Shown here in pieces: positions 4,816 through 25,318 of a stretch of 64,000 nt of DNA. The notes below the pieces were generated by a model. It saw only the letters and a program-made list of their open reading frames with translations. It was not told the origin of the DNA and searched no databases. Source of the DNA: Natronorubrum texcoconense (lineage in GTDB: Archaea > Halobacteriota > Halobacteria > Halobacteriales > Natrialbaceae); the NCBI RefSeq assembly GCF_900100335.1, contig NZ_FNFE01000002.1:62001-126000 (forward strand), written 5' to 3'. The position numbers and the translations under genes are program-made. Within the stretch, counting starts at the first letter, position 1, and each line of letters starts with the position of its first letter.

Positions 4816-5313
4816 CTAGATTTTGACGTTCGACGTCGAGGTGAGGTCGTCGTCGTCGTCGATCGGCCCCTCGCCGACGAACGAGTAGTCGTCGTCGGTC
4901 AGATAGACGTCGCCGTCGTCGACGGTGATCTCGAGGTCGTTCAAATACGCGCCCTCGCAGGGGCCGTACGTACACTCGCCCGAGTCGCTGTCGAAGTACG
5001 CGCCGTGGTTGGCACAGACGAGTTCACCGTCTCGCATGGGGGCACCCGACCCTTTGTCGATCTTGATATGAGTGAGGTGTTGACAGTAGTTCAACCAGCA
5101 GGAGAGTTGCAGTCCGTCGGCGAGTTCTGCGGTCCGTTCGGTCTCACAGCCGTCGTGTAGGCCGTCATCGCAGCCGCCAGACGGACCGTCAGCGCCGTCG
5201 CCCGTGACGAGAATTGCCTCCCGTTCTTCGCCCTCGTCGTCTCTCACTCGAAAGAGCAGCGTCGACTCCGACGGCACCTCCTCGAGCGCGGCAATCCGCT
5301 CTGAGACGTCCAT
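4816..5313 (-). CDS. Rieske [2Fe-2S] domain protein
   Basis: The 165-residue soluble protein carries the Rieske cluster ligands as Cys77-Gln-His79 (NYCQHLTH) and Cys100-Ala-Asn-His103 (CANHGAYF), the C-x-H...C-x2-H pattern. A second cysteine pair (CTYGPCEG) follows. There is no membrane anchor, so it resembles a ferredoxin-like electron carrier rather than the Rieske subunit of a bc1 complex. An acidic insert rich in Gly and Cys lies at residues 40-58. The ATG at 5313 is preferred over an in-frame TTG two codons upstream. The redox partner is unknown; the divergent reductase at 5406 is only a neighbour. Confidence 0.85.
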   Translation of the reverse strand: MDVSERIAALEEVPSESTLLFRVRDDEGEEREAILVTGDGADGPSGGCDDGLHDGCETERTAELADGLQLSCWLNYCQHLTHIKIDKGSGAPMRDGELVCANHGAYFDSDSGECTYGPCEGAYLNDLEITVDDGDVYLTDDDYSFVGEGPIDDDDDLTSTSNVKI

Positions 5314-5405
5314 TGGCAACCCGGTTATCGACCGGAAATCCTGAACGTTTCGATATGGGACCCGTCTGACGCAACTTTAACACCCTGAGAACCAAACGAC
5401 GGCCA

Positions 5406-6524
5406 ATGGACTCCCTCCTCATCTACGGCTCGTACGGCTACACTGGTCGGCTGATCGCCCGCGAGGCCGTCTCTCGAGGAGGTTCGCCGGCCATCGCCGG
5501 TCGCGACGGTCGAGCCGTCGCGCGTCAAGCGGACGAACTCGGCGTCGAAGGACGCACGTTCGGCCTCGGTGACGACGTCACGTCCCACATCCGGAATTTC
5601 GACGCCGTGTTGAACTGTGCGGGCCCGTTCGTGAAGACGGTCAATCCGCTCGTCGAAGCCTGTCTCGAGACCGAAACCGATTACCTCGACATCACGGGCG
5701 AGTTCCGCGTCTTCGAGCGACTGCGACGACGAGACGACGCGGCTCGAGACGCGAACGTGACGATGCTTCCCGGCGTCGGCTTCGAGGTCGTCCCGTCGGA
5801 CTGCCTGGCGGCGTTTCTCCACGAGCAGCTGCCGTCGGCGACCGGGCTCTCGTTAGGTGTCAAGGGGAACGGCCCACTCTCGCGGGGAACCGCCCGGACG
5901 TTCGTCGAACAGCTCGGAACCGACGGCGTCGTTCGTCGAAACGGCCGACTGATCAAGGTGCCGATGGGCTTTCGGACGCGCGATATCGATTTCGGTACCG
6001 GTCCCGAGCACGCGGTCTCGGTCCCGTGGGCCGACGTCGTCACCGCCGCACACAGTACCGGAATCGACTCGATCGAGGTGTACGCGGCCGTGCCGTCGTG
6101 GGCGACCCGGGGGATGGCCGTCGTCGACTCCCTGGGCTGGCTGCTCGAGCGACGCCCGATCAAAGGCGGACTGCGGCGGCTGGTCGATTCGCAGGCCGAC
6201 GGTCCCGACGAACGGGAACTCGCCACCGATACGGCGACGGTCTGGGGAGATGCGGTCGACGAATCGACCGGCCGTCGCGCCCGCGCTCGAGTCCGCACGC
6301 CGAACCCGTACGCGCTCACGGCCGAGAGCGCGGTGACCGCCGCCGAACGGCTCCTCGACGGGCACGACCGGCCCCGAAAGCGGATTCCGGCCGGCTTCCA
6401 GACGCCGGCGTCGGCGTTCGGCAGCGAGTTCGTCCTCGAACTGTCGGGAACGGACCGCGAACTCCTCGCGGCGCCGAGCGAATCCGGAGAGCCCGAACGG
6501 TCGCCGCTCGAGTCCGACGATTAA
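5406..6524 (+). CDS. saccharopine dehydrogenase-like NAD(P)-dependent reductase
   Basis: The 372-residue protein opens with a Rossmann nucleotide-binding motif, LLIYGSYGYTGRLIAREA. It continues with AVLNCAGPFVKTVNPLVEAC, DYLDITGEF and PGVGFEVVPSDCLA, the layout of the saccharopine-dehydrogenase/trans-acting enoyl reductase group. Members reduce or oxidise varied substrates, including polyketide and lipid intermediates, so the family name does not imply lysine metabolism here. The gene is divergent from the Rieske gene, with 92 bases between starts, and converges on the MATE gene three bases after its stop. Confidence 0.82.
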   Translation: MDSLLIYGSYGYTGRLIAREAVSRGGSPAIAGRDGRAVARQADELGVEGRTFGLGDDVTSHIRNFDAVLNCAGPFVKTVNPLVEACLETETDYLDITGEFRVFERLRRRDDAARDANVTMLPGVGFEVVPSDCLAAFLHEQLPSATGLSLGVKGNGPLSRGTARTFVEQLGTDGVVRRNGRLIKVPMGFRTRDIDFGTGPEHAVSVPWADVVTAAHSTGIDSIEVYAAVPSWATRGMAVVDSLGWLLERRPIKGGLRRLVDSQADGPDERELATDTATVWGDAVDESTGRRARARVRTPNPYALTAESAVTAAERLLDGHDRPRKRIPAGFQTPASAFGSEFVLELSGTDRELLAAPSESGEPERSPLESDD

Positions 6525-9668: not shown

Positions 9669-11310
9669 CTGTGTCACCTCCATCGGTCTCGAGCGCCATC
9701 CCGGCCCGCTCGCCGAGCGCCTCGTCGACGGCGGTGAGCAGCGCGCGAGCCTTGTCCAGCGTTTCGTCGTACTCGAGGTCGGGCTCCGAGTCGTGGACGA
9801 TGCCCGCGCCGACGCGAAGGTGGTACTCCTCGCCGTGGCGGACCAGCGTCCGAATGACGATGTTGAGCGTCGCCCGCCCGTCGAAGCCGAAGATTCCCAT
9901 ACTCCCTGTGTAGGGTCCGCGTCGGGTCGCCTCGAGTTCGTCGATGATCTCCATCGTTCGGGGTTTCGGCGCGCCCGTGATCGTCCCGCCGGGGAACACC
10001 GCGGCGACCGCGTCGGCCAGCGTTTCGTTGGGCCGGAGACGCCCCGTCACGTTCGAGACGAGGTGCATCACCTCGGAGTAGCGGTCGATCCGTCGGTACT
10101 CCTCGACCTCGACGGAGCCGTACTCGCTGACCTTGCCGAGGTCGTTTCGCTCGAGATCGACCAGCATCGCGTGCTCGGCGCGTTCCTTCTCGTCGGTGCG
10201 CAGATCCTCCTCGAGCGCCGCGTCCTCCGCGGCCGTCTCGCCGCGCGGTCGCGTGCCCGCGATCGGTTCCGTGCGGAGGAACTCGCCGCCGCGCGCTCGC
10301 GGATCCTGAGCGGAATCCGGGGCGCGCGGTTCCCCCAGCTCGAGCAGCAGTTCGGGACTGGCACTCACCAGATCGGCCGCGCGCAACTCGAGCAGTCCGG
10401 AGTAGGGCGCCGGGTTGACCCGCCGGAGCGCGTCGTAGGCCGCGACGGGGTGGACGGCGGCCGGGGCGACCAGCCGCTGAGAGATGTTCGCCTGGAAGGT
10501 GTCACCGTCACGAATGTATGCTTTCACCTGGCGGACGCGGTCCGCGAACGCCTCGCGACCGCAGTCGCTCTCGAAGGTCGCCGCCGGTGTCTCGACCGCC
10601 GGCTCGCCGACGGTCGGATCGCCCTCGAGTGCGGCCCGCGCGAGTTCGAGCGCGCGCTCGCAGCCGCGGTCGTAGGCCGCTTCGACGGTGTCGTCGTCTG
10701 GAGCAGCCGCGTCACCATCGGCATCGAGAGCGAGTCGCGGACAGGCGGTCACTCGCAGCGTCACCCCTTCGGCGGAGTCGTCGACGGGTTCCTCCCAGGT
10801 GGCCAGCCGGTCGTAGACGCCGACCTCGAGTCGCGGCAGGTCGCGGTCGTCGTCGGCCGATTCGGGGAGTGCTTCGAGCTCCCGGACGACGTCGTAGGAG
10901 AGCCAGCCGACCGCGCCGCAGGGGTAGGGGACGTCGCAGTCGCCGCGAGCCAGTTCGTCCCGCTCGAGGAGTCCCTCGAGCGCCTTGAGCGTTGGCGAGC
11001 CGTCGTCGGTTCGCGGGTGCGTCACCGCGTCGGGACCGACCGTCAGCCGATCGACGGGGTCGACGCCGAAGTAGCCCCAGCCGGGTTGGCCGCCGGTCGT
11101 CTCGAGGAAGGCGCCGCCCGTTCCCTGTGGCGCACGGGCTCGACGGTAGGCGAGAAACGGATCGTCGACCGTGACTCGGAGTTCGACGGGAACGCGAATT
11201 CCACTGCTGTGCGTCGTCGAGTCAGGGGTCCCTCGAGCACCGGTCTCGAGCCGGTCGGTGAGGGCGGCTCGAAACGACTCGAGCGAGGTGACGACGCGCG
11301 GATCGCTCAT
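9661..11310 (-). CDS. pabB: chorismate-binding synthase component I (PabB/TrpE family)
   Basis: The 549-residue protein aminates chorismate using ammonia from the partner at 8967. The chorismate-binding domain fills the second half, with [12 protein letters not shown] at about residues 268-279, [12 protein letters not shown] at 348-359, [39 protein letters not shown] and [12 protein letters not shown]. The operon contains a class IV PLP lyase, which points to p-aminobenzoate synthesis, yet the active-site loop reads PIAGT (Ala351), the anthranilate-synthase form, rather than PIKGT typical of PabB. A 30-residue Asp/Ala-rich insert near residue 200 is a haloarchaeal embellishment. First gene of the pabB-pabA-pabC operon. 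Confidence 0.85.
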
Positions 11311-11465
11311 GTGCCTCGAGAGGGGGTGGGAGCCTAATCTTCTTGCGGTTCGGGCGCGGAATCCGCATCCTCCAGAAACAGAAGTACTCGACCGTCCTCG
11401 TGACGGCCGGTAAATCGCTGAAGGGGTGAGAGGAGAGCGGTGGGACGATTCGAGACGCGGAGACG

Positions 11466-12281
11466 TTATCGGACTTCCGCGCGGTCGATCCAGCCCTGGA
11501 GGCGTTTTTCGGAGATATCGGTCTGTCCGGACAGTTCGGCAGCGTCCGCGCTGGCGAGGTCGGCGACGGTCTCGACGCCGGCACTCGCGAGGCGGTCGGC
11601 GTAGGCGGGTCCGATGCCCTTAATCGAGTCGACCGGCTCCTGAGTACCGGCGTCGTCCGCCGGCTCGTCCGCTTCGGCGTCGGATTCCGTCTCCGTTTCT
11701 TGCACCGAGTCCACGTCCGCGTCGTCGATGTCGGTCTCCGGTTCGGTCTCGTCGACGTCGGACTCGGATTCGGCTTCGTCTTCGGACTCGGTCTCGAGGT
11801 CGTCTTCCTCGACCGATTCCGGGTCGGAGTCGTCCGCCTCGATCTCCTCGGCCAGTTCTTCGGGCTCGGCCTCCTCGACCGGCACCTCCTCCTCGGAGAT
11901 GTCGGGCGTCTTCTCGTCCGTCGGCGTCGCGTCTGCCGAGGACGGCCCCGTCGCTTCGGCGGGCTCGGCCGCCTCCTCGGGCCCGTCCGACGGCTCCGTC
12001 ATCGAGTCCGTCGACGCCGCAGCGGTCGTCTCGGCGGCTGCCGATTCGTCGGCGTCAGCCGCTGCGTCGTCATCGTCGTCGGATTCGGTCTCCGAAGCGT
12101 CAGCGGGACTCGACGGCGCCGCCGGCTCCGACTCCGGTTCGGTCTCGGTCGTCGTCGATTCGGGTCCGTCCTCCTGTGCCCCTTCCCGCTCGACTGTTAC
12201 CCCGACCTCTCGACTGCGCCCTCGCTCCGGATCCGAGTCACCGAACCCCAGCAGCGATTTTATCTTCTGGAGGATTGCCAT
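11466..12281 (-). CDS. acidic protein with C-terminal helix-hairpin-helix domain
   Basis: The 271-residue protein has three parts. Residues 1-15 ([15 protein letters not shown]) form a short amphipathic helix. Residues 25-215 are an extremely acidic, low-complexity Asp/Glu/Ser/Thr/Ala linker. The last 55 residues hold a helix-hairpin-helix DNA-binding domain ([25 protein letters not shown]) like the C-terminal domains of topoisomerase and RadA-type proteins. It probably binds nucleic acid through the tail, but no enzymatic domain is present. The gene stands alone on the minus strand between pabB and aroE. Confidence 0.72.
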
Positions 12282-20035: not shown

Positions 20036-21124
20036 CTAGAAGAGGTTCTCGAGGCGGTCGTCCGCGAACTGTTCTGCGGGGTCCGATCGCTCTTCTTCGC
20101 GTTCCTGAGCCCGGTTCGCCTCACGTGCGCGATCCATGAACGCCCGTACGCGATCGGAGCGTTCGGCCCCGCCGAGCAGGACCAGCGCGCCGAGTCGATC
20201 GCTGTCGAGCGGGAAGTCGCCCCCCCGGACCTGCATGCTGCCGGTCTCGTCCTCGAGCCAGCGGCGCGCGCGTTCGACACCTTTGCGGGGAATTCGGTCG
20301 GGTTCGCCGGCGATGACCAGCAGGGCCGCTTCGGCCGTCGTCGCGTCCGGGAGGCTCGTGCCCGTCAAGAGGGCCTGCCGGGAGACGCTCATGGCGGTGT
20401 TGATGTTCTCCGCGCTGTCCTCGCTCGCGAGTTCGGTCGCGTAGCCGAGCGCCGAGACGCCGCCTGCGCGGAGCGTGTTGATGACCTCGCTCGAGTCGAC
20501 CACGCTTTCCCCGACGCCCTCGACCGCCTCGCCGGACGCGAAGAGGAGGCCGACCCGCTGGGCGATTTTGCCGTTGATCGTCTCGAAGGCGCCGTCCATG
20601 CTCTCGCCCTGTTCGTGCCACGCGTCGTTATCGATGAGCAGCGTCGAGTCGGCCTCGCGGATGAGCGTCTTCAGGGATCGACCGGCGTTGGCCTGGTAGA
20701 GCGCGCCCTCGTTCCGACCGGGGAGAACGCCGAGCGTATAGACCGGTACGTCGTAGACCTGCTGGAGGTGGTGGACGAGCACCGGCGCGCCGCCGCTGCC
20801 CGTTCCGCCGCCGAGACCCGCGACGACGAAAATAGCCTCGGCGCTCGAGGTGACGCGCCCGTCGAGCGCGCCGAGCACCTGCTGGATGTCCGACTGCATG
20901 ACTTCGGTGCCGAGTTCGTTGTCGCCGCCGACGCCGTGTCCGTTGACGCGATCCGCGCCGATCAACAGGGTGTCGGCGAACTCGAGCGACTGGAGGTCCG
21001 CTTCCGCGGAGTTGACGGCCAGTGCGCCCTGAACGGCTCCGAAACCCATCTCCGCGTCGAAGCGGGTGAGCCGTTCAGCGACCTTGCCACCGGCCTGACC
21101 AACCCCGATCAGGGCAACTTTCAT
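20036..21124 (-). CDS. cetZ: CetZ-family tubulin-like GTPase
   Basis: CetZ proteins are archaeal tubulin-superfamily GTPases that polymerise and influence cell shape and motility. The 362-residue protein starts KVALIGVGQAGGKVAERL, has GHGVGGDNELG near residue 62, the tubulin signature GLGGGTGSGGAP at about 103-114, and the T7-loop region LLIDNDAWHEQGESMDGAFETINGKIA. A short C-terminal tail ends in RLENLF, as CetZs do. It lacks the long inserts of CetZ1 that I recall, so assignment to a numbered subgroup is left open. A TTCAATTACC element on the minus strand about 25 bases before the ATG suggests leaderless transcription. Confidence 0.88.
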   Translation of the reverse strand: MKVALIGVGQAGGKVAERLTRFDAEMGFGAVQGALAVNSAEADLQSLEFADTLLIGADRVNGHGVGGDNELGTEVMQSDIQQVLGALDGRVTSSAEAIFVVAGLGGGTGSGGAPVLVHHLQQVYDVPVYTLGVLPGRNEGALYQANAGRSLKTLIREADSTLLIDNDAWHEQGESMDGAFETINGKIAQRVGLLFASGEAVEGVGESVVDSSEVINTLRAGGVSALGYATELASEDSAENINTAMSVSRQALLTGTSLPDATTAEAALLVIAGEPDRIPRKGVERARRWLEDETGSMQVRGGDFPLDSDRLGALVLLGGAERSDRVRAFMDRAREANRAQEREEERSDPAEQFADDRLENLF

Positions 21125-21332
21125 ACGGATTTCATGTAAGCACGGGTAATTGAACGTTCCGGTGGACAAGTACATCGAGGGTGGACGAACGTACTCGTTC
21201 ACGGACGAGGAGGTCAGCCAGCGGGGTGTCAGTATCCCCGCACGGACGACCCCGGCATCGCCAATATCGTAACAACTGAAACGATTTGCACACTGATCGC
21301 ATAGCTCGCGGGTCGTTCCTCTCCGTCTGCTC

Positions 21333-21578: not shown

Positions 21579-22004
21579 ATGTTCTACGACCAGCGGATGA
21601 CCGTCCCCGACTCGCCCGCCGACCTCCGCGCCGAGTACGAGGACGACCTGCGGGCCGTCGTCGACCAGCACGGAGCCGACGCCGTCGCCGAGCAGACCGA
21701 CGTGGATCGGGACGCTGCCGAGGCGCTGCTCGAGTCCGAGTCACCCGACCTCACTATCGCAGAAGTCGCCCAGATTCAGTCGCTCGAAGCGGGCGAACCC
21801 GAGCCGGACGAGATGGTGACCATCGCCTGCGAGCACCTCCTGTTGGGGATGTCGACGGCCGTGCTCGACGTCGATTCCATCGAGAGCGAACTCGAGATCG
21901 AACTGGACGCCAAGGAAGTACAGCAGAAACTCGAACAGCGCGCGCCGATGTCGCTCGAGGAGTTCGTTCACATCCAGTACGTGATCGCCGACGGCGCGCC
22001 CTGA
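21579..22004 (+). CDS. DUF5791 family protein
   Basis: The 141-residue acidic soluble protein starts FYDQRMTVPDSPADLRAEYEDDL, which matches my memory of the haloarchaeal DUF5791 family. It continues with TIAEVAQIQSLEAGEPEPDE and LLGMSTAVLDVDSIESEL. The sequence looks all-helical, with a helix-turn-helix-like middle, and is thought to be conserved across Halobacteria with no known function. The gene is monocistronic. Confidence 0.7.
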   Translation: MFYDQRMTVPDSPADLRAEYEDDLRAVVDQHGADAVAEQTDVDRDAAEALLESESPDLTIAEVAQIQSLEAGEPEPDEMVTIACEHLLLGMSTAVLDVDSIESELEIELDAKEVQQKLEQRAPMSLEEFVHIQYVIADGAP

Positions 22005-22179: not shown

Positions 22180-23040
22180 ATGAGTTTCGCCACGTCGACG
22201 AGGGCCGCCGGCAACCGAGTTCGGGGCACCGTCGAAGACGGTACGCACCGAGCGCGAAAGCCCGCGTTCTACTTCGTCACGGCCGCCTTCGTCGCGTTTC
22301 TCCTGTTCGCGCTGCGCGAATCGATGGTGATGGTCGGAACCGCCTGGACGGGCGGCTACGCGTTCCCGGTCCACCGCGTCCACCACATGATGATTGGCGG
22401 GATGCTGACGGTGTTCGCCGCGACGGTCGCCGTCCAGCTCTATCGCCCGGCGAAGCGAGTGGGGGCGCTCCAAGCCGCGATCGCCTTCGCGATTTCAGCG
22501 TTCGTCCTCACGGCCGTCGCCTCCGGTCTCGCGGCGGCCGGCGAGATCCTCGTCTTCATGGTTCCGGTCCTGCTCATCGCCCTGTTACACCCGGCTCGCA
22601 GAGAAATCCTGCCGAGCTTCGAGGGGATGGATACCCGGCTGGTCGCACTCGCCGCCATCGGCGCGCTCGGCATGGCGGCCGTCGCCGTCGGCGAGTACGC
22701 GAGCCACACGACGCTCACCAACGAACACGTCACGTTCGGTCACTTCGAGTTCATGCTGTTCGCGACCGTCTCGATCGGCCTGTTCGCGCTGCTGGGCGCC
22801 CTCCGACCGACCGGCTGGCGCGCACTGGTCTACGCCGCCGCCGCGATGGCCGTCCTCTTCGCCGCCGGCTCGCTCGCGTTCCCCGGAATCGAGCAGGGCT
22901 CGAGCCTCGGTACCGCCGGCGCGCTCGCAACCGTCGCGTGGGCCATCGCGTTCGTCGTCCTCGCGGAGTACGTCGACCGCACCGACTCGATCGAATCGGA
23001 ATCGACCGACGCGGAACCGGCCCTCACGGAGTCGGCCTGA
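22180..23040 (+). CDS. polytopic membrane protein of unknown function
   Basis: The 286-residue protein has about eight predicted hydrophobic segments, from AFYFVTAAFVAFLLFAL to TAGALATVAWAIAFVVLAEYV, with a charged cytoplasmic-looking tail. Two histidine-containing loops stand out: VHRVHHMMIGGM near residue 68 and TNEHVTFGHFEFM near residue 185. They could bind metal or haem, but I recognise no family. The gene is preceded by an A/T-rich dyad and followed by a short gap before the SDR gene. Confidence 0.7.
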   Translation: MSFATSTRAAGNRVRGTVEDGTHRARKPAFYFVTAAFVAFLLFALRESMVMVGTAWTGGYAFPVHRVHHMMIGGMLTVFAATVAVQLYRPAKRVGALQAAIAFAISAFVLTAVASGLAAAGEILVFMVPVLLIALLHPARREILPSFEGMDTRLVALAAIGALGMAAVAVGEYASHTTLTNEHVTFGHFEFMLFATVSIGLFALLGALRPTGWRALVYAAAAMAVLFAAGSLAFPGIEQGSSLGTAGALATVAWAIAFVVLAEYVDRTDSIESESTDAEPALTESA

Positions 23041-23150: not shown

Positions 23151-24041
23151 ATGAACGTCGCAATTCTGGGCTGTGGCCACGTTGGCCTCGAGTTGGGCCG
23201 CCAACTCACCGAGCGCGGTCACGAGGTGACCGGCGTGCGTCGCTCCGACGGCGGCGTCGAGAAAATCGAGGCAACTGGATTCGACGCTGTCAAGGCTGAT
23301 GTCACCGAACGGAATGCGCTCGAGGCCGTTCCAGACGTCGACGCCATCGTCTTCGCGGCCAGCAGCGGCGGCCGGGGCGCGAACGCAGCCCGCGAGGTCT
23401 ACGTCGAGGGTCTGCGGACGGCCATCCAGCAGTTCGGCGAGCGCGAGAACGGCCCCGACAGGCTGGTCTACACCTCCTCGACGGGTGTCCACGGCGATCA
23501 CGACGGCGACTGGGTGGACGAGGAGACCGAACTCGATCCGACCACCGAGAAGACCGCGGTGCTCGCCGAGGCCGAACGGATCGCCCTCGAGTTACCTCCC
23601 GAGTACGGCTTCGAAGGCACCGTCGCACGCTACGCCGGCCTCTACGGCCCCGGTCGCTACCGCCTCGAGCGCTACCTCGAGGGCCCGGTCACCGAGGGCT
23701 ACCTGAACATGGTCCACCGCGACGACGCGGCGGGAGCCGTCCGCTACCTCCTCGAAGAGGACCTTGCGCGCGGCGAGGTAGTGCAGGTCGTCGACGACGA
23801 ACCCGCCCCAAAGTGGGCGTTCGCCGACTGGCTGGCCGAGCAGTGCGGCCTCGAACAGCCGCCGAAGCAGACGAAAGCCGAGCGACTCGCGGAGGGAGAC
23901 GTTTCGGAGGCCGGCAAACGCCGCATTCTGACCAGCAAACGCTGTTCCAACGACAAACTGCGGGAGCTGGGCTACGAGTTCGCGTACCCGACGTATCGGG
24001 AGGGGTACCGGGACGCGATCGATGACTATCTCGGTCGCTGA
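23151..24041 (+). CDS. NAD(P)-binding SDR / nucleotide-sugar epimerase-like protein
   Basis: The 296-residue protein is an extended short-chain dehydrogenase-like protein. The Rossmann loop reads AILGCGHVGLELGRQL, and the catalytic-type segment is LVYTSSTGVHGDHDGDWVDE. It resembles the YeeZ/ylbE group of atypical SDRs, which keep the nucleotide fold but often lack the Tyr-x3-Lys pair; I do not see that pair in the usual place. NMVHRDDAAGAVRYLLEE is a typical later motif. GATTATGT at 23121-23128 lies 28 bases before the ATG, so the transcript is probably leaderless. Confidence 0.78.
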   Translation: MNVAILGCGHVGLELGRQLTERGHEVTGVRRSDGGVEKIEATGFDAVKADVTERNALEAVPDVDAIVFAASSGGRGANAAREVYVEGLRTAIQQFGERENGPDRLVYTSSTGVHGDHDGDWVDEETELDPTTEKTAVLAEAERIALELPPEYGFEGTVARYAGLYGPGRYRLERYLEGPVTEGYLNMVHRDDAAGAVRYLLEEDLARGEVVQVVDDEPAPKWAFADWLAEQCGLEQPPKQTKAERLAEGDVSEAGKRRILTSKRCSNDKLRELGYEFAYPTYREGYRDAIDDYLGR

Positions 24042-24130
24042 CGGCGCTACCACGCCGATACGCGCAGATATTGACGACAAACGGTCGCCAGAGGGGGAAA
24101 TTTCTTAGTGATTCACTTTGATTGTCGGGT

Positions 24131-25318
24131 ATGAGCGACCGGGACCTCTCGATCAGCAGCGTCTCTCTCGAGCCCGACACGTTGCTGGTCGAGAGCGTCG
24201 TCGACGAACTCCAGGCCCTCGAGCCCCTGGTGCTCTCCCTGCTCGTCCTCGCGACCGTGGCCGTCGTCGTCGGCAGCTGGTGGGTCGTCCGCTGGTTTCG
24301 ACGACCGCCCGGCGTCCGCATTCAGCGCTTGCTGGGAAACTACGACGAAATTGCGGTGTTGATGCACCCGAACCCGGATCCAGACGCTATGTCCTGTGCG
24401 ATGGGAATCGCCCGAATCGCCGAGGCCGTCGACACCGAGGCGACGCTGCAGTACGCCGGCGAAATTCGCCACCAGGAAAATCGCGCGTTCCGAACCGTTC
24501 TCGATCTCGAACTCGAGTCGATCGAATCGAGCTCGCAGCTCGCCGCCGACGCCGTCGTCCTCGTCGATCACAACACGCCGCGCGGGTTTGCGGGCTCACA
24601 GACTGTCGAACCCATCGCTGTCGTCGACCACCACCCCGGCAACGGGGCTGGGACGGAGTTCACCGACGTTCGGACCGACTACGGTGCCGCGTCGACGATC
24701 CTCGTCGAGTATCTGGACGAACTCGGCGCGACGATGGCGGCGGAGGGCGGCAACGGGTTCGAGATCTCGGAGGAGCTCGCCACGGGGCTCCTGTACGGCA
24801 TTCAGTCGGATACGAACCAGTTGACGAACGGCTGCTCGCGGGCCGAGTTCGACGCCTGCGCCTCGCTGTTTTCGGGTATCGACGAGGACCTCCTCGATCG
24901 GATCGCCAACCCGCAGGTCAGCGACGACGTTTTACGGGTCAAAGCGACGGCCATCACCGAAAAACGCGTCGAAGGTCCGTTCGCCGTCTGCGACGTGGGC
25001 GAGCTCTCGAACACCGACGCGATCCCGCAGGCCGCGGACGAACTGATGCACTTAGAGGGCGTCACGGCGGTCGTCGTCTACGGCCAGAACGACAACACGA
25101 TCCACCTCTCGGGGCGCTCGCGGGACGACCGGGTCCACATGGGCGAGACCCTGCGCCACGCCATCAGCGACATTCCGATGGCCAACGCGGGCGGCCACGC
25201 CCGGATGGGCGGCGGACAGGTGTCCGTCGACCACATGAACGGGATCGGTCCCTCCGACGGCATCAGCAAACCAGAGTTCGAAGAGCGGCTCTTTTCGGCG
25301 ATGGCCGGCGAACGGTAA
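24131..25318 (+). CDS. membrane-anchored DHH-family phosphoesterase
   Basis: The 395-residue protein has one N-terminal transmembrane helix (residues 33-55, LVLSLLVLATVAVVVGSWWV) followed by a DHH domain: LMHPNPDPDAM with His79, Asp83 and Asp85, Asp146 in VLVDHNTP, and Asp-His-His at 166-168. A DHHA1 domain ends in NAGGHARMGGGQVS near residue 350. All metal ligands are present, so it should be active. Soluble relatives hydrolyse nanoRNA or pAp, and membrane-tethered relatives in bacteria (GdpP) degrade c-di-AMP. The ATG at 24131 is preferred to a TTG at 24122; a TTTCTTAG element lies 28 bases upstream. Confidence 0.85.
   Translation: MSDRDLSISSVSLEPDTLLVESVVDELQALEPLVLSLLVLATVAVVVGSWWVVRWFRRPPGVRIQRLLGNYDEIAVLMHPNPDPDAMSCAMGIARIAEAVDTEATLQYAGEIRHQENRAFRTVLDLELESIESSSQLAADAVVLVDHNTPRGFAGSQTVEPIAVVDHHPGNGAGTEFTDVRTDYGAASTILVEYLDELGATMAAEGGNGFEISEELATGLLYGIQSDTNQLTNGCSRAEFDACASLFSGIDEDLLDRIANPQVSDDVLRVKATAITEKRVEGPFAVCDVGELSNTDAIPQAADELMHLEGVTAVVVYGQNDNTIHLSGRSRDDRVHMGETLRHAISDIPMANAGGHARMGGGQVSVDHMNGIGPSDGISKPEFEERLFSAMAGER

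Follow-up and report, generated by a model that had tools for sequence, protein, structure and literature searches.

A conserved membrane-anchored DHH-DHHA1 phosphoesterase of haloarchaea as a candidate c-di-AMP hydrolase

The window analysed here – 64,000 nucleotides from Natronorubrum texcoconense (contig NZ_FNFE01000002.1, positions 62,001 to 126,000) – contains on its forward strand an open reading frame that runs from the ATG at 24131 to a TAA stop at 25316-25318 and encodes a protein of 395 aa (24131..25318; the features described below lie on the same strand unless stated). A Pfam scan of this protein, referred to here as TM-DHH or type C, finds a DHH domain (residues 74-224, 24350..24802; PF01368, E 7.9e-12) and a DHHA1 domain (residues 283-367, 24977..25231; PF02272, E 4.5e-10), each scoring above the gathering threshold, and no domain beyond these two. 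The motifs that define the DHH-DHHA1 class are all present: motif I, H79-P-N-P-D83-P-D85 (24365..24385); motif II, D146-H147 (24566..24571); motif III, D166-H167-H168 (24626..24634); motif IV, D227 (24809..24811); and, in DHHA1, G354-G355-H356 (25190..25198), together with R329-S330. All 132 distinct orthologues keep H79, D83, D85, D146 (motif II being invariant as a whole), D166-H167-H168, D227, R329 and G354-G355, while H356 is retained in 130/132. An AlphaFold2 model built from a 71-row alignment reached a pLDDT of 92.6 and a pTM of 0.81.

Ahead of the catalytic part lies a single transmembrane helix with an R/K-rich flank behind it (residues 32-56, 24224..24298): it is the sole hydrophobic helix of membrane length in the AlphaFold2 model, and 17 residues separate it from the DHH domain. 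Using a hydropathy criterion (a 19-residue window with a KD value of at least 1.6, located ahead of motif I), a hydrophobic segment was found in 132/132 distinct orthologues vs 1/45, 1/38 and 0/22 members of the paralogue families. The count of K and R is higher after the helix than before it in 131/132 distinct orthologues, which argues that the enzyme sits in the cytoplasm. Since helix and predicted metal ligands alike are kept throughout the 132 orthologues, the feature is a genuine one maintained by selection, and not the product of chance: the intact DHH-DHHA1 enzyme and the single N-terminal transmembrane helix claimed by an earlier, sequence-only reading are both borne out.

The gene is preceded by a BRE/TATA-like block, ggggaaatttctta (24094..24107, -37 to -24 of the ATG). 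Across 130 distinct orthologue upstream regions a conserved G-run (-38 to -36) is followed by an A/T block (-34 to -25), the element lying about 27 nt ahead of the ATG, and an SD-like sequence occurs in just eight of the 130. To judge from its sequence, this arrangement fits a putative BRE/TATA element and supports a leaderless transcript, as had been proposed. The accompanying claim of a monocistronic gene stands in part: the gene's own promoter block and the convergent gene downstream make it plausible, but an SDR/epimerase gene on the same strand (23151..24041) lies directly upstream in 99/120 loci, so that read-through may occur. The gap between the SDR and DHH genes in these 99 loci is 24-197 nt (median 90); the SDR gene stays ahead of the DHH gene in most of the order, and each seemingly has its own promoter. 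This conserved neighbour and the invariance of the membrane anchor are what would be expected if TM-DHH were a membrane phosphoesterase for some other nucleotide or sugar-nucleotide linked to the SDR gene, a reading that we regard as improbable: the DHH gene has a conserved promoter block of its own, no functional tie to the SDR gene is known, and co-loss of the family with the DAC domain (see below) favours c-di-AMP.

Further upstream are a DUF5791 gene (21579..22004), near the DHH gene in 25/40 loci, and, between it and the SDR gene, the gene of a 286-aa protein (22180-23040) with several predicted membrane spans. This protein has no Pfam or NCBIfam match and is missing at the corresponding place in Natronorubrum bangense. 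At a distance of 3 kb from the DHH gene there is a homologue of CetZ2 (20036-21127, reverse strand; 4b45, 1.2e-147), and the two are also near each other in Haloferax and Natronorubrum.

TM-DHH is one of four related proteins in its genome: A (L002) and B (L003) are TrkA_N-DHH-DHHA1 proteins, and D (L005) is a solo DHH-DHHA1 protein; a RecJ-like protein (L006) and a DHHA2 pyrophosphatase (L001) are encoded in addition. The last of these is the genome's true family II Mn-dependent inorganic pyrophosphatase, an identity rejected for TM-DHH, which has no DHHA2 domain and scores 45 bits against an equivalog cut-off of 283. In a midpoint-rooted tree A, B, C and D form separate supported groups, with A joining the single-copy proteins of other Halobacteriota; these single-copy proteins have TrkA_N and intact active sites. 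The RCK_N (TrkA_N)-DHH-DHHA1 proteins of Halobacteriota, including haloarchaeal A and B, share with C the DHH-DHHA1 core, an HQENRA motif and 30-46% identity, but they lack the membrane helix and carry TrkA_N at the N-terminus.

The active sites of the paralogues have fared differently. They are intact in all 30 B and all 30 C proteins, the Asp of motif IV being invariant in both groups; the non-haloarchaeal RCK_N forms have intact sites as well. Glu occupies motif IV in A (30/30) and D (20/20), and the site of haloarchaeal A is degenerate beyond this: 14/30 have no first His and 23/30 no second DHH His, and in 29/30 the GGH motif starts with A instead of G. The midpoint-rooted tree suggests an active ancestral enzyme of which A is the orthologue and whose activity would have been impaired later, in haloarchaea. 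That A-type proteins (L002:1018-2466 in the own genome; also in L041-L070 and L329) lost metal ligands despite their near-universality makes a pseudoenzyme or a nucleotide sensor possible. In two genomes of one genus (g31) the TM-DHH gene is followed directly, on the same strand, by paralogue B (L139:9207-10373 and 10452-11945): a tandem of both intact-site enzymes.

When the profile of C was compared to the PDB, the catalytic domain of GdpP ranked first (5xt3, 7e-14) and full-length GdpP also matched (9n0l, 6e-11); TmPDE (4e-5) and NrnA (6e-3) were weaker, and pyrophosphatases matched the DHH domain only. A Foldseek search with the AlphaFold2 model likewise returned GdpP with pApA at the top (5xsp, 8e-22), followed by TmPDE, Pde2/NrnA, DhhP and CnpB, with TM-scores of just 0.5-0.6 and an rmsd near 5-6 A, the low scores being attributable, in our view, to the domain angle. 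Likeness to GdpP/YybT (catalytic domain 5xsi, 5xsn, 5xsp, 5xt3; full-length 9n0l, 9o3g, 9o9l) comprises the DHH-DHHA1 module with all metal motifs, a QAAD-L-LEG stretch in DHHA1, membrane anchoring and a cytoplasmic catalytic part. C, however, has one helix instead of two, has neither the PAS nor the degenerate GGDEF domain and is only about 21% identical. The description of the protein as reminiscent of GdpP therefore holds for the catalytic domains, which are its nearest relatives of solved structure, and for the anchoring, and fails for the second helix, PAS and GGDEF. Searches with TM-DHH among phages and among viral structures gave distant DHH proteins only.

GdpP-likeness is not peculiar to C. 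That B would be the less GdpP-like of the two was rejected on its match to 9n0l (2.3e-21): B is as GdpP-like as C, so homology cannot choose between them. NrnA, CnpB (Rv2837c), DrRecJ-like and TmPDE, several of which cleave c-di-AMP or pApA, share the fold and motifs with C, but they are soluble and their profile match to it is weaker than that of GdpP. Among them the DrRecJ-like, NrnA-like protein is the best match in a single-sequence PDB search (8ioo, 3e-8), and it prefers pApA over c-di-AMP (PMC11229311). TM-DHH could accordingly be the second-step enzyme, converting mainly pApA (and short RNA) to AMP as NrnA does, while paralogue B opens c-di-AMP: two intact-site paralogues coexist in most haloarchaea, B being the universal one, and H. 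volcanii holds its pApA at very low levels (PMC8646023). We consider this unlikely, because GdpP ranks above NrnA by both profile and fold and because, in the small genomes described below, the membrane form is the sole family member found beside DAC.

An archaeal relative shows how far substrates can vary. The DHH-DHHA1 phosphoesterase of Pyrococcus yayanosii is a strict pAp phosphatase, inactive on c-di-AMP (PMC8268124), and this counts against the c-di-AMP reading; its substrate-binding motif VII has K287 where NrnA has His, whereas C keeps H356. Together with the NrnA annotation carried by related D-type proteins on haloarchaeal plasmids, it invites the view that TM-DHH acts on pAp, or as a general nanoRNase, and has nothing to do with c-di-AMP. 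The co-loss of the DHH family with the cyclase domain and a score of 18.2 bits for TM-DHH with the curated NrnA model NF053633 (cut-off 350) both speak against such an activity, which is accordingly very unlikely.

Co-occurrence with the cyclase was scored in one set of 295 Halobacteriota genomes, in which the DHH family was called by profile A1 (E<=1e-10) and the cyclase by its DAC domain. Both were found in 256 genomes, neither in 20, the DHH family only in 11 and DAC only in 8: with 19 discordant genomes Fisher's test, a simple test that ignores phylogeny, gives p 3.6e-17. Outside the order the corresponding counts are 203, 20, 11 and 8 (p 2e-15, phylogeny again ignored). Both are missing from the sampled genomes of family f33, and within a single genus (g84) two genomes (G286, G381) have both and four (G329, G353, G420, G428) have neither. 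The co-loss ties the family to c-di-AMP; outside haloarchaea the test covers mainly the RCK_N form, and membership in the c-di-AMP pathway is indicated for the DHH family as a whole, not for the membrane form by itself. A second, weak DAC match, in L009 of the own genome, scored 24 bits, below the cut-off, and was dropped.

The distribution of the membrane form is narrower. In a sample of 117 genomes of the order, with C called at E<1e-100, C occurs in 71 and is missing from 46 (about 40%), whole sampled genera (g14, g22 and g32, for example) being without it; A is nearly universal, B is present in nearly all and D is patchy. In the family to which genome G060 belongs, most of 170 genomes have C, and G060 itself does not. 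Since DAC is present in 115/117, the membrane form cannot be the sole c-di-AMP hydrolase of haloarchaea, and that idea was rejected. Two small genomes of family f2 (G018 and G032; about 1 Mb, GC 0.40), about 70% complete, have C and DAC without A, B or D; the idea that family f2 represents an ancestral state was dropped, as its proteins nest inside the haloarchaeal membrane-form clade of the tree. A membrane-form gene (4851-6023; 51% identical) also lies on a plasmid of Salinibaculum sp. KK48 (L333), apart from its usual neighbours; around it are hypothetical genes and genes for a PD-(D/E)XK nuclease and for a DEAD/DEAH helicase. In another genome the gene is in two pieces (G079:C84:90000-91144; residues 15-278 and 281-395), through a frameshift or an assembly error.

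In Haloferax volcanii c-di-AMP is made by the essential DacZ, whose overexpression is lethal; the nucleotide is itself essential, does harm when in excess and has a link to osmoregulation (PMC6741144). An MscS-like channel gene adjoins dacZ in the own genome (L008:702-1466, reverse strand), as described for haloarchaea (PMC6741144). As of 2021 the degrading enzyme of H. volcanii was still unidentified (PMC8646023), and a list of predicted candidates names HVO_0756, HVO_0990 and HVO_1690 (PMC8305020); our survey of the literature on haloarchaeal hydrolase candidates found no biochemical test of them. Synthesis by DacZ and an unsettled hydrolase had both been mentioned by the sequence-only reading. 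HVO_0990 and HVO_1690 are more abundant under hypochlorite stress (PMC10294847).

H. volcanii being outside the loci sampled, these tags were mapped through Haloferax massiliensis (L213) by cetZ2 identity and gene spacing. In H. massiliensis, 7-8 kb separate the C gene from a near-identical counterpart of HvCetZ2 (4b45), which is HVO_0745 (PMC10927574), and a single contig carries C at 1365, B at 1137, dacZ at 479 and A at 437 kb. The spacings (about 229, 658 and 41 kb) agree with the intervals between HVO_0756, 0990, 1660 and 1690 if a gene takes up roughly 1 kb. From synteny and spacing, HVO_0756 is apparently the Haloferax orthologue of C, and by the same argument HVO_0990 would be B and HVO_1690 A. 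The Haloferax A protein has DHF instead of DHH and Glu at motif IV: HVO_1690 appears degenerate and is predicted to be catalytically impaired.

The best single reading of TM-DHH, partly supported by these data, is a c-di-AMP phosphodiesterase that is anchored in the membrane and resembles GdpP in catalytic type, to which we assign a probability of roughly 60%. In favour of the hydrolase first suggested by the sequence-only reading are the top rank of GdpP by profile and fold, the co-loss of the family with DAC, the C-B tandem, the small genomes in which C and DAC occur with no other member, and the invariant ligands and helix; against it stand the absence of the gene from some 40% of the sampled haloarchaeal genomes and the equal candidacy of B. 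What the computations show is the architecture, the orthology, the intact site, the topology signal, the promoter block and, at family level, the co-loss with the cyclase. In the mechanism that we infer – substrate, product, metal, division of labour and physiological role alike – a single N-out/C-in helix would hold the DHH-DHHA1 module at the cytoplasmic face, where two divalent metal ions (Mn2+ by analogy) would be bound by H79, D83, D85, D146, the DHH histidines and D227. These metals would activate water to cut a phosphodiester bond of DacZ-made c-di-AMP, yielding pApA; the nucleotide would be held by DHHA1 through its GGH and R329-S330 motifs. The work would be shared with soluble B: TM-DHH is probably one of two active enzymes, and for the general role its near-universal RCK_N-DHH-DHHA1 paralogue qualifies at least as well.

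A broader scenario is tentative and, we think, stands at well under even odds. An ancestral RCK_N-DHH-DHHA1 c-di-AMP hydrolase of Halobacteriota, tied to DAC, may have expanded in haloarchaea, where A (HVO_1690-like) would have lost metal ligands while remaining nearly universal, perhaps to become a sensor of c-di-AMP or adenine nucleotides, and catalysis would have been divided between soluble B and membrane C, the latter a sensor-less 'minimal GdpP'.

For Haloferax the idea of a c-di-AMP hydrolase is apparently already in print as a prediction (PMC8305020), and what is offered here is a sharpened lead and no discovery. New relative to that prediction are a membrane topology kept throughout the orthologues, the promoter block, and co-loss with the cyclase across the phylum, as evidence that the DHH family is part of the c-di-AMP pathway. 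The three candidates have also been mapped to types C, B and A, and one of them has probably lost its activity. This leaves two of the three with intact sites, HVO_0756 as the membrane form and HVO_0990 as the RCK_N form, and makes the long-standing question of the haloarchaeal hydrolase testable. If the expansion scenario were true, C would place c-di-AMP breakdown at the membrane in organisms that balance molar potassium.
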